Below are positions 33,141 through 36,678 of a stretch of DNA of 45,556 nucleotides, one piece after another. The notes under the pieces are model-generated. The model searched no databases and was not told the origin of the DNA. It saw nothing but the letters and a program-made list of their open reading frames with translations. How positions within the stretch are numbered: the first letter of the stretch is position 1; every line of letters starts with the position of its first letter. This DNA comes from Clostridia bacterium (GTDB lineage Bacteria > Bacillota > Clostridia > Oscillospirales > CAG-272). Position numbers and translations under genes: made by a program. The DNA is taken from positions 1 through 45,556 of the forward strand of contig JAGALS010000002.1 in NCBI GenBank assembly GCA_017625065.1. Direction: 5' to 3'.

Positions 33141-33396
33141 TTAACAGACTGTGATGGAAAAAGTATTGCGGATATCCCGTTTCAAGAGAGCCGTTGGTGC
33201 TGGAAATACGGCAATGGGCACTGCAAGAAAAACGCTCCGGAGTCTGCGGAAGAAAGCCTTGCCCTGTGGCAAAAGGTGATTAGAACCGCACGTTCATCGC
33301 GTCAAGATGCAAATGAAGTGGACCGCAAGGTCAATTTGGGTGGTATCGCGGAAGTCGTCTTTCGTCCCATATGTGTGGGGACGGGAGGCGTTTTTT
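33141..33396 (+). promoter_or_regulatory. T-box riboswitch, apparent Asn (AAC) specifier
   Basis: Stem I base pairs CAGACT (33145-33150) with AGTCTG (33241-33246). The AGTA motif (33162-33165), then TTGC (33166-33169) paired with GCAA (33223-33226), place the specifier loop at about 33227-33236, where AAC (33231-33233) is followed by a purine. AGAGAGCCGTTGGTGCTGGAAA is the distal part of stem I. The T-box core TTGGGTGGTATCGCGG is at 33336-33351. The terminator is a 13-bp stem (33356-33368 with 33378-33390) and six Ts. Uncharged tRNA(Asn) would favour readthrough into aspS-gatCAB. Confidence 0.88.
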
Positions 33397-33466: not shown

Positions 33467-35242
33467 ATGCTTAGAACACATAACTGTAATGAGCTGAACA
33501 AAAACCACATCGGTCAGACCGTGACGCTTTGCGGCTGGGTCGAGACCGTGCGCGACCACGGCGGCGTGCTGTTCGTTGACCTGCGCGACCACTATGGCGT
33601 GACGCAGATCGTCTTTTCCGACGACAAGATGCTTGCCGGCATTTCCAAGGAGACCGTCGTTTTGATCGAGGGCGTCGTCACTGAGCGTGACGCCGAAACC
33701 GTAAACCAAAAGATCGCCACGGGTCTTGTTGAGGTGCGCGCCGGCAAGATCAAGGTGCTTGGCCCCTGCCAGCTCGGCCTGCCCTTCGAGATCGACGCAT
33801 CCACGCAGACGCGCGAGGAAGTGCGTCTCAAGTACCGCTACCTTGACCTTCGTAACAGAAAGATCCACGACAATATCGTGCTGCGCTCCCGCATCCTCTC
33901 CTACCTGCGCTCGCAGATGGAGGATATGGGCTTTTTGGAGATCCAGACCCCCATTCTGACCGCCTCCTCCCCCGAGGGCGCGCGCGACTATCTGGTCCCC
34001 AGCCGCAAGCACAAGGGCAAGTTCTATGCTCTGCCCCAGGCGCCCCAGCAGTTCAAGCAGCTGCTTATGGCCTCGGGCTTTGATCGCTATTTCCAGATCG
34101 CACCCTGCTTCCGTGACGAGGATGCCCGTCAGGACCGCTCCCCGGGAGAGTTCTATCAGCTCGACTTCGAGATGTCCTTCGCCACGCAGGAGGACGTGTT
34201 CGCCGTTGCCGAGCAGGTCGTGTATAACACCTTTACAAAATTCTCAAGCAAGAAGGTCTCCAAGCCCCCCTTCCGCCGCATCACCTTTGCCGACGCGATG
34301 CTGAAGTACGGCTCGGATAAGCCCGACCTCCGCAATCCCCTTGAGATCAAGGACCTCACAGGCTTCTTCGCTTCTCACGACTTCCTTGAGATCAACGGCC
34401 GCACCATCCCCTTCAAGAACAAGCTCGTGCGCGGCATCGTCGCCAACTACCTTGTGAAAAAGGACGGAGAGGGCGACGGCAAAAAGGCGTTTGAGAAGGC
34501 GATCGACACCTACTCCCGCAGCATCGGTATGAAGTTCGGCTGCGGCTATATCACCCTTGAGGGTGGCGAGTACAAGGGTCCGATCGCAAAGTTCCTGTCC
34601 GAGGAGGAAAAGGCGGAGCTCACGGCACTGTGCGGCATCAAGGAGGGTGATTCGCTCTTCTTCATCAGCGACACTCCCGCTGTGATCAACTCCCTCGCGG
34701 GACAGATGCGCACCTGGATCGGCAACGAGCTTGGACTCATCAAGAACGATTCCTTCGAGTTCTGCTTCATCGTGGACTTCCCCATGTACGAGCGCAACGA
34801 GGAAACGGGCAAGATCGACTTCACCCACAACCCCTTCTCCATGCCGCAGGGCGGTATGGACGCGCTGCTCAATAAGGATCCGCTTGATATTTTCGCTTAT
34901 CAGTACGATATCGTGTGCAACGGTGTCGAGCTTTCCTCGGGTGCCGTTCGTAACCACAATCCCGAGATCATGCGTAAAGCATTTGAGATCGCAGGCTACG
35001 GCGAGGAGGACGTTAAGGCAAAGTTCGGTGCGCTTTACACCGCTTTCTCCTACGGTGCGCCCCCCCACGCGGGCATGGCGCCCGGCGTTGACCGCATGAT
35101 CATGCTCATCGCCGAGGAGGAGACCATCCGTGACGTGATCGCATTCCCCCTCAACGGCAACGCGCAGGACCTGATGATGGGCGCACCCGGTGAGGTCACC
35201 GAGCAGCAGCTCCGCGAGGTCCACATCAAGGTTCGCGACTGA
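33467..35242 (+). CDS. aspS: Aspartyl-tRNA synthetase (bacterial type, probably non-discriminating)
   Basis: A 591-residue class II synthetase. N-terminal OB fold (GQTVTLCGWVETVRDHGGVLFVDLRD), motif 2 CFRDEDARQDRSPGEFYQLDFEMSF, the GAD insertion (residues about 290-415) and motif 3 GAPPHAGMAPGVDRMIML. Motif 3 usually reads HGGIAxGLDR; the changes are unusual but conserve Gly and Arg. Linked to gatCAB under one T-box, so it probably charges both tRNA(Asp) and tRNA(Asn) with Asp. ATG 33467 after TTGGAGGAAAA. Confidence 0.96.
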   Translation: MLRTHNCNELNKNHIGQTVTLCGWVETVRDHGGVLFVDLRDHYGVTQIVFSDDKMLAGISKETVVLIEGVVTERDAETVNQKIATGLVEVRAGKIKVLGPCQLGLPFEIDASTQTREEVRLKYRYLDLRNRKIHDNIVLRSRILSYLRSQMEDMGFLEIQTPILTASSPEGARDYLVPSRKHKGKFYALPQAPQQFKQLLMASGFDRYFQIAPCFRDEDARQDRSPGEFYQLDFEMSFATQEDVFAVAEQVVYNTFTKFSSKKVSKPPFRRITFADAMLKYGSDKPDLRNPLEIKDLTGFFASHDFLEINGRTIPFKNKLVRGIVANYLVKKDGEGDGKKAFEKAIDTYSRSIGMKFGCGYITLEGGEYKGPIAKFLSEEEKAELTALCGIKEGDSLFFISDTPAVINSLAGQMRTWIGNELGLIKNDSFEFCFIVDFPMYERNEETGKIDFTHNPFSMPQGGMDALLNKDPLDIFAYQYDIVCNGVELSSGAVRNHNPEIMRKAFEIAGYGEEDVKAKFGALYTAFSYGAPPHAGMAPGVDRMIMLIAEEETIRDVIAFPLNGNAQDLMMGAPGEVTEQQLREVHIKVRD

Positions 35243-35270: not shown

Positions 35271-35552
35271 ATGGAAAAAGACACCTTACTACTGTTAGAA
35301 AAAGTAAACCAGCTTTCCCTTTCGGAAAGCGAACGCGATACCGTTCTCGGCTTTTTTGAAAAGCGTGAGTGCGATATGGAGAAACTGAACGCCATCGACA
35401 CCGAAAATGTCGAGCGCATGGTACACGTGCTGCCCATCAACACCGTTGTGCGCGAGGACGTGGCGAAAAAGCTCTTCACCCGTGACGATCTGCAAAAGGG
35501 CGCGCCCGAAACAATGGACGGCTTCTGGCAGGTCCCCCGCGTTGTGGAATAA
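35271..35552 (+). CDS. gatC: GatC-like subunit of Asp/Glu-tRNA amidotransferase
   Basis: A 93-residue, divergent GatC: helical part (LLLLEKVNQLSLSESERDTVLGFFEKR), NAIDTENVERMVHVLPINTVVREDVA, then the C-terminal TMDGFWQVPRVVE, which matches the GatC end. It clamps GatA to GatB. ATG 35271 after TGGAGGTC. Confidence 0.85.
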   Translation: MEKDTLLLLEKVNQLSLSESERDTVLGFFEKRECDMEKLNAIDTENVERMVHVLPINTVVREDVAKKLFTRDDLQKGAPETMDGFWQVPRVVE

Positions 35553-35565
35553 GGAGGGAAAACGT

Positions 35566-36678
35566 ATGAAAAAGATCATGCTGGATCAAATGATCCTGAC
35601 CGACTGCTGCCCCACCAACGCAGGCTCCAAAATGCTGGACGGCTACACGGGACTGTTCAATGCCACCGTTGTTGAAAAATTAAAGGAGGCAGGCTATGAG
35701 ATCGCGGGCAAGCTCCCTGTTGGCGAGTTTGCGATCGACCTTGTGGGTGAGAGCTGCTTTGCGGGTGCCGACAAGGCAAGCGCCGCCGCAAAAACCCTTG
35801 AAAACGATACCGTTATGGCACATATTGCCCTTGACGTGAACGGCGCACCCCGTCGTGTTGCCGCACAGAACGGTCTTGTGTTCGCAAAGCCCACCTACGG
35901 CACCGTTTCGCGCTTTGGTATGATCCCTGTGGCTTGCTCGGGCGAGTGCGTGGGCGTTATGGCAAGGAATGCGGCTGATTGCCGCGAGGTGCTTTGTACC
36001 ATCGTCGGCAAAGACGAAAAAGACGGCACGATGCACACCGATGAGGTGTGCAAGAACGCCGCAGCTGCCGCAGCTCCCGTCAAAAAGGTCGCTGTTTTGA
36101 AAATGCCCACCGATGCAAACGATAAAATCGAGGCTACAAAAGCAAAAATGGCCGCTAACGGTATTGAAATTTGCGAAATTGACGCGGGCGTGATCGCCTC
36201 TGCCAACGCCGCTTGGAATATGCTGATGTGCGCCGAGCTTTGCAACAACGTTTCGCGCTACGACGGTGTGAAATACGGCTACCGCACGAAGAATTACAAA
36301 AATCTTGACGAGCTTTACACGAACAGCCGCACCGAAGCGTTTGGGCTTACACTCAAAACCGCTATTCTCTACGGCTCCGACGTGCTTTCCACCAAGAACT
36401 ATATGGCAAAATACGACAAGGCGATGCGCGTGCGCCGCGTGATCGTCGAAGCGTTTGCGGGGATCTTTGCCGACTTTGACGCCGTGCTGCTGCCTGCCGT
36501 TTCCAAAATGGCATACACCGAAAAGGACAGCGCGTTTGAGGAAAACGCTTACACCGCGCCCGCCTCGGTAACGGGGCTGCCCGCAGTCGTGACAAACGGC
36601 GTTCAGCTGATCGGTCCCGCCTTCTCGGACGGCGCTCTGCTCGCCCTTGCCGAGGCACTTGAAAAGGAGGGCAAATAA
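35566..36678 (+). CDS. gatA: GatA-like protein lacking the amidase catalytic triad
   Basis: A 370-residue GatA homologue, about 115 shorter than normal. The N-terminal quarter, including the catalytic Lys segment (AIKDN), is missing; it begins at the region normally CASKMLE (NAGSKMLDGYTGLFNATVVEKLKEAG). The GGSSGGSAAAVAAG loop with the cis-Ser is absent (replaced by GADKASAAAKTLEN), and the nucleophile segment GSDTGGSIRQPA reads DVNGAPRRVAA. The remainder (FAKPTYGTVSRFGMIP, the C-terminal TGLPAVVT) is GatA-like. Reading frame is clean and codon use matches the operon, so this is not a recent pseudogene. It may be structural only. A full-length GatA elsewhere in the genome is possible. Confidence 0.9.
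   Translation: MKKIMLDQMILTDCCPTNAGSKMLDGYTGLFNATVVEKLKEAGYEIAGKLPVGEFAIDLVGESCFAGADKASAAAKTLENDTVMAHIALDVNGAPRRVAAQNGLVFAKPTYGTVSRFGMIPVACSGECVGVMARNAADCREVLCTIVGKDEKDGTMHTDEVCKNAAAAAAPVKKVAVLKMPTDANDKIEATKAKMAANGIEICEIDAGVIASANAAWNMLMCAELCNNVSRYDGVKYGYRTKNYKNLDELYTNSRTEAFGLTLKTAILYGSDVLSTKNYMAKYDKAMRVRRVIVEAFAGIFADFDAVLLPAVSKMAYTEKDSAFEENAYTAPASVTGLPAVVTNGVQLIGPAFSDGALLALAEALEKEGK

Follow-up and report, generated by a model that had tools for sequence, protein, structure and literature searches.

We think it somewhat probable that the operon described here specifies a tRNA-dependent amidotransferase for the synthesis of Asn-tRNA(Asn), in which a shortened GatA (GatA') would serve as a structural subunit and in which the ammonia, in the genus studied, would most likely come from solution. 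Judged from sequence, this reading is supported by the loss of catalytic and glutamine-binding residues from GatA', by an intact GatB, by control through an Asn T-box, and by a genome in which neither an asparaginyl-tRNA synthetase (AsnRS) over cut-off nor another GatA was found.

The operon and its altered GatA

The window, i.e. the whole stretch of 45,556 nt of DNA that was analysed, contains no tRNA genes and carries an operon in the order T-box, aspS, gatC, gatA', gatB, all on the + strand:

33142..33372, + strand: T-box leader (RF00230) with specifier AAC = Asn; 98.1 bits against a gathering score of 93
33467..35242, + strand: aspS, bacterial-type aspartyl-tRNA synthetase (AspRS) with a GAD domain (PF00152, PF01336, PF02938; NF001750 at 766.7 bits, over the cut-off)
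35271..35552, + strand: gatC (PF02686, 4.3e-14; TIGR00135, 69.4 bits)
35551..35558, + strand: ribosome binding site AAGGAGGG before gatA', read directly
35566..36678, + strand: gatA', an open frame of 370 aa without the N-terminus, the catalytic triad and the glutamine-binding residues
36680..38116, + strand: gatB, complete (PF02934 and PF02637)

The open frame, its ribosome binding site and the complete gatB that follows it are thus as an earlier note on this DNA had described them. The Asn specifier was read both from the alignment and by script. An RDHGG motif is a sign of a non-discriminating AspRS, and the AspRS of the window is probably non-discriminating.

GatA' appears to retain the amidase-signature fold: it matches the Pfam Amidase profile over cut-off (152.5 bits), and its predicted model (AF2; pLDDT 89.5) has GatA chains as best structural matches. 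With the NCBIfam gatA profile (TIGR00132) it scores 213.3 bits, below the cut-off of 481.1. The model spans residues 73-479 of the Staphylococcus aureus GatA chain (PDB 2df4), so that about 72 N-terminal residues (1-72) would be missing. In the alignment to S. aureus GatA the Lys-cisSer-Ser triad is gone, the GGSSGGS loop is absent, and Ser178, Arg358 and Asp425 are replaced by Ala94, Ala266 and Asn327, respectively. The loss of the active site claimed in the earlier note therefore holds for the loop, for Ser178 and for Lys79, but the lysine had been placed within the deleted part; its position is in fact kept and substituted (Asp7), and the deletion comprises the N-terminus before it. The glutamine-binding roles of Arg358 and Asp425 are taken from PMC4027206. 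By its residues, GatA' lacks what would qualify a GatA as a glutaminase.

From 61 distinct GatA frames, 39 dead and 12 full GatAs entered a first alignment; five full GatAs of the same genus were left out, as were five pieces (one end-of-contig piece and two halves each of L060, where dead gatA' is interrupted by TAG, and of L041, where it is split over two frames, through assembly error or decay). Adding 15 dead rows gave 54 distinct dead GatAs, with L103 kept apart. This comparison of homologues revealed a loss wider than first stated: the Lys79 position holds D in 47, E in 6 and G in 1 of the 54, GGSSGGS, Arg358 and Asp425 are each found in 0/54, Tyr309 likewise in 0/54 (W in 50, M in 4), and the Ser178 position is Ser in 10/54, the others having A, T, Y, K, F or R. 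By contrast, 12/12 full GatAs aligned keep every one of these features (Lys79, loop, Ser178, Tyr309, Arg358, Asp425). A sequencing or assembly error, considered in the earlier note, is a poor explanation, because six of the 15 genus genomes that matched GatA and 54/54 distinct homologues, from many assemblies, share the loss, which speaks against both chance and a single faulty assembly.

Could GatA' have rebuilt an amidase site from the new residues Asp7/Asp8, Asp58, Trp217, Asn92 and Arg97? These residues are nearly invariant among the 54 dead GatAs (Trp at the Tyr309 position in 50, Asp58 in 50, Arg97 in 54, Asp8 in 51, Asn92 in 49), and, Asp8 excepted, they set the dead form apart from the 12 full GatAs. 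However, no conserved Lys/Ser/Cys nucleophile set was seen and the residue at Ser178 is variable (A, S, T, Y, K, F, R), and we judge a rebuilt site to be very improbable. As one part of the explanation that we favor, it is rather likely that GatA' no longer binds or cuts glutamine; with this active site lost and the rest of the enzyme kept, the ammonia must have another origin.

The remainder of the enzyme is well preserved. GatB is intact in 53/53 partners of dead GatA, with E10, H12, E124, E125, D126, K129, E152 and D158 invariant, key residues that we take in part to be Mg/ATP-binding. Their Mg/ATP-binding roles were in part judged from PMC4027206. The GatC of the window exceeds the TIGR00135 cut-off (69.4 versus 47.1 bits), and by the features of GatB and GatC the holo-enzyme belongs with GatCAB.

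A probable route to Asn-tRNA(Asn)

Given the intact GatB, the Asn T-box, the rarity of AsnRS, the presence of glutaminyl-tRNA synthetase (GlnRS) and the lack of another amidase, the complex with dead GatA would very likely be the route to Asn-tRNA(Asn) that operates without a glutaminase. Among 11 dead-GatA sources scanned, seven (the window, L023, L024, L025, L029, L031 and L032) have a T-box at gathering score and four (L022, L034, L120 and L128) fall below it, with the core sequence still present in L022. AAC lies at the same distance before GGAG in the window and in L022, L023, L024, L025, L027, L028, L031 and L119; searching by pattern gave no clear specifier in L029, L030, L032, L110 and L136.

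The distribution of AsnRS was followed in 56 dead-GatA genomes (27 + 15 + 14, two of the last 16 having been set aside as duplicates of G171 and G106, judged by their identical places). No AsnRS over cut-off was found in the window genome, a check for which the earlier note had called, although at 87.7% completeness an AsnRS could sit in a gap. Over the whole set AsnRS exceeds the cut-off in 7/56 (3/27, 4/15 and 0/14), five more genomes reach 190-330 bits without passing it, and 44/56 have no AsnRS-like match above 190 bits beyond other synthetases. Sets with full GatA or without GatA were chosen from longer lists (16 and 9 genomes, respectively, at the family level, 40 and 12 at the class level); the family-level comparisons of AsnRS, GlnRS and amidases used nine of the 16 and six of the nine. 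Genomes without GatA have AsnRS over cut-off in 18/18 cases versus 7/56 with dead GatA (p 7e-12, ignoring relatedness), and full-GatA genomes have it in 3/9 at the family level and 29/40 at the class level, where G369, with an AsnRS match split in two, was scored as lacking it.

GlnRS is over cut-off in 41/42 genomes, which makes a role of the dead-GatA complex in Gln-tRNA synthesis unlikely. According to PMC4206432, GatCAB is typically missing from organisms that have AsnRS as well as GlnRS, and at that time no known bacterium combined both routes to Gln-tRNA. In 25/27 dead-GatA genomes searched, no PF01425 protein besides the dead GatA was found; the exceptions are G012, with a full copy, and G106, with a second odd copy. 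A second full GatA that supplies the activity, as the earlier note proposed, was not found in the window genome (87.7% complete), where the only other amidase-family hit, 171 aa long and cut by a contig end, is part of a further dead GatA in the orthologous stretch described below (contig C89).

Distribution and conservation of the dead form

A GatA match was found in 15/21 genomes of the window's genus, six with the dead form and ten with the full form, G012 having both. In the wider family the dead form scores above 380 bits in 23/295 genomes sampled, a number of frames that are short or truncated (G304, G069 and G075 among the genomes concerned) being left unclassed; these 23, three genus genomes and G071, which has a divergent form, make up the 27 family-level dead-GatA genomes. 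In a class sample of 391 the window genome and 12 others score above 500 bits and three more have a divergent dead form, among matches above about 271 bits, so that further divergent dead forms were possibly missed; the class genomes above 500 bits (n=12) have one GatA match each. A scan of named genomes yielded 21 dead-GatA loci, with a ruminant host in 13 titles and Eggerthellaceae or Coriobacteriaceae accounting for seven.

For a GatB tree, five of 76 rows were dropped that had no called GatA beside them. In the resulting unrooted tree of 71 rows, all 53 partners of dead GatA fall on the same side of a single branch (support 100/99) and include nine family codes of the window's class plus Actinomycetota. 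A single origin of the dead form is the simplest of the possible readings of this tree.

The earlier note also envisaged close relatives with a full GatA at this locus and a recent deletion here. Instead, three full-GatA genus mates compared with the window carry what is, by protein identity, another operon, with AspRS 37% (over about 300 residues) and GatB 49% identical to those of the window, versus 93-96% for AspRS and 90-91% for GatB in two dead-GatA genus mates. A recent deletion in one strain was rejected because the dead form is common to several families and to 54/54 aligned homologues.

In 15 pairs among six genus homologues, dN/dS of gatA' is 0.115-0.256, versus 0.033-0.093 for full gatA in the genus, both being rough values because most pairs are close to saturated at synonymous sites. 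Purifying selection acts on gatA', but constrains it less tightly than full gatA. This raised dN/dS and the AsnRS of seven dead-GatA genomes are what an operon that is decaying or regulatory, with Asn-tRNA made by a missed AsnRS, has in its favor; conservation across families and two phyla, T-box control, the intact GatB and the absence of AsnRS over cut-off from 49/56 genomes all argue against such an operon, which we regard as extremely unlikely.

Several loci depart from the common arrangement. A second dead gatA'/gatB stretch lies at C89:32060-36301 of the window's own genome G000 (L099); it is colinear with the window over 4.2 kb at 84%, extending beyond gatB, so that a paralogue was rejected and the stretch is probably orthologous, from a related population in the bin (contamination 2.57%). 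At L103:1968-3305 (G106 contig C36), an odd GatA keeps its N-terminus and Ser178 region, has Gly for Lys79 and lacks the GGSSGGS segment; its GatB has a very long branch outside the dead group, and G106 additionally carries a dead gatA' operon and AsnRS. L036:9962-17193, from one MAG, has dead gatA'-gatB followed directly by a complete gatC-gatA-gatB and then by AspLike, an asparaginase/GatD-like gene. L131-L133 (family f12) and L067 (G071), from near-complete genomes, have a divergent dead GatA with another nucleophile segment, and AsnRS is present besides it in 3/3 f12 genomes (L131-L133). An AspRS-GatC fusion lies upstream of dead gatA' in L120, L121 and L123-L130, the GatC domain being seen in 3/3 examined (L121, L128, L130). 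In G012, which also has the dead form, a full gatCAB lies directly 3' of an ammonium transporter-PII fusion gene (PF00909, PF00543; L102:5786-7513, contig C63). Among open frames of at least 90 aa at 21 loci, with flanks of up to 10 kb and often shorter, no neighbor recurs in more than two loci beyond the operon genes, AspLike and one antisense shadow cluster.

The source of the ammonia and known systems

Combining these data, we suggest that (i) the T-box would sense uncharged tRNA(Asn) and turn the operon on, (ii) AspRS would put Asp on tRNA(Asn), (iii) GatB would activate this Asp with ATP and then amidate it, (iv) GatA' would persist as a structural subunit, holding GatB/GatC and the ammonia path, and (v) in the window's genus ammonia would most likely enter from solution where the glutaminase site used to be and has opened up. 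Ammonium is abundant in animal guts. All seven Eggerthellaceae/Coriobacteriaceae genomes lack both AsnRS over cut-off and AspLike, as free ammonia would allow; where AspLike occurs, in much of the clade, its presence suggests that free ammonia is perhaps insufficient.

Alternatively, the same amidotransferase could receive ammonia from AspLike working together with the complex, in the way that GatD serves GatE in archaea, which we consider possible but less likely. AspLike was counted with two profiles, A3 at the family level and A6 at the class level and in the last 16 genomes; 7/10 class hits and 6/6 hits among the last 16 are genomes that gave A6 seeds. At 300 bits or more it is found in 24/56 dead-GatA, 1/56 full-GatA and 0/21 GatA-less genomes (p 8e-8 ignoring relatedness, partly seed-biased), and without the 13 seed genomes of the profile used in 11/43 dead-GatA versus 1/56 full-GatA genomes (p 4e-4 ignoring relatedness). 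In 19/24 it lies within 10 kb of the operon, in G437 by gatB. Among dead-GatA genomes it occurs in 24/49 without AsnRS over cut-off and 0/7 with it (p 0.016 ignoring relatedness), and in the class set without AsnRS a member of at least 100 bits occurs in 11/11 with dead GatA (4/4 non-seed) and 1/11 with full GatA. The AspLike of relatives has the asparaginase/GatD fold. The profile is as near GatD 1zq1 (107.9 bits) as any asparaginase (108.5), there is an SENM stretch as in GatD 2d6f, and Thr13, Thr96 and Asp97 are invariant.

On the other side, the catalytic Lys aligns with an invariant Gln (Gln173) and the NCBIfam gatD cut-off of 324 is missed (L029 68.9 bits, L032 77.3, others no higher than L029). 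At the family level alone the association is not significant (8/27 dead versus 1/16 full, p 0.12), and AspLike was not found in 7/7 Eggerthellaceae/Coriobacteriaceae or in G701, G007, G071, G106, G564, G578, G478 and G407. The window's homologue (159 bits) falls in a sister group that is itself present in 9/9 full-GatA genus mates, and in this genus the relative lies apart from the operon, on contig C14 of G000. A constant partnership with AspLike was rejected, the gene being absent from the window operon and from the Eggerthellaceae/Coriobacteriaceae genomes; the earlier note's idea of a borrowed amidase thus fits part of the clade, where AspLike is often beside the operon, but not the window. 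A sister-group gene without the catalytic Lys adjoins a class I tRNA synthetase of the W/Y family (Pfam, L137) at L137:5731-6708 and also occurs at L138 and L139, two of these genomes having dead and one full GatA.

The linkage of AspLike to the operon may also reflect asparagine salvage only: without AsnRS, Asn is useless for translation and would be hydrolysed to Asp for AspRS, GatA' using free ammonia. Of the 42 genomes scored for both AsnRS and this family, 28/30 without but 2/12 with AsnRS over cut-off have a family member scoring 70 bits or more, and among those without, 22/24 with dead and 6/6 with full GatA have one. However, in the class set only 1/11 full-GatA genomes without AsnRS has a member at 100 bits, and we consider salvage alone unlikely.

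In textbooks, bacterial synthesis of Asn-tRNA and Gln-tRNA includes both the glutaminase of GatA and an ammonia tunnel. Compared with bacterial GatCAB (S. aureus, Aquifex aeolicus, the Pseudomonas aeruginosa Asn transamidosome), GatA' differs in lacking the N-terminus, Lys-cisSer-Ser and the glutamine-binding residues, and no glutaminase is expected. The T-box-controlled tRNA-dependent amidation of Clostridium acetobutylicum is alike in its control of tRNA-dependent Asn synthesis, with a GatA that is reportedly an ordinary one. The AspLike-bearing part of the clade resembles archaeal GatDE in pairing GatB/GatE-type amidation with an asparaginase-fold partner, but GatA' and GatC are retained, the window operon has no such gene, and AspLike lacks a counterpart of the first 90-odd residues of GatD as well as its Lys. 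In yeast mitochondrial GatFAB, according to PMC4027206, deleting the GatF segment that props GatA lowers glutaminase activity and raises transamidation with NH4Cl, a likeness to a weakened glutaminase with better NH4Cl use; the difference is that this is a laboratory mutant of GatF with the GatA catalytic residues in place, acting on Glu-tRNA(Gln). A search of mostly open-access literature, with subscription papers mostly outside its scope, returned no account of a glutaminase-dead GatA, which is weak evidence of novelty.

Tentatively, and at well under even confidence, we raise the possibility of a distinct class of bacterial transamidosome in which the glutaminase has been dismantled, GatA' has become an ammonium-entry scaffold and a GatD-like asparaginase-fold subunit has been recruited in many lineages beside an AspRS-GatC fusion, an arrangement like archaeal GatDE that would have been reached independently.

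Plain annotation as "GatA" overstates the function of these proteins. A GatA that is widespread in nature yet has no glutaminase would pull apart the release of ammonia and the scaffolding role, and would mark the asparaginase/GatD-like family as a candidate donor of ammonia. It would also allow a clean test of whether an essential translation step can run on free ammonia in guts that are rich in it. It appears that a group of gut bacteria makes Asn for its proteins by a known three-part enzyme in which the ammonia-releasing part has no active site and the rest is kept and regulated as an Asn pathway.
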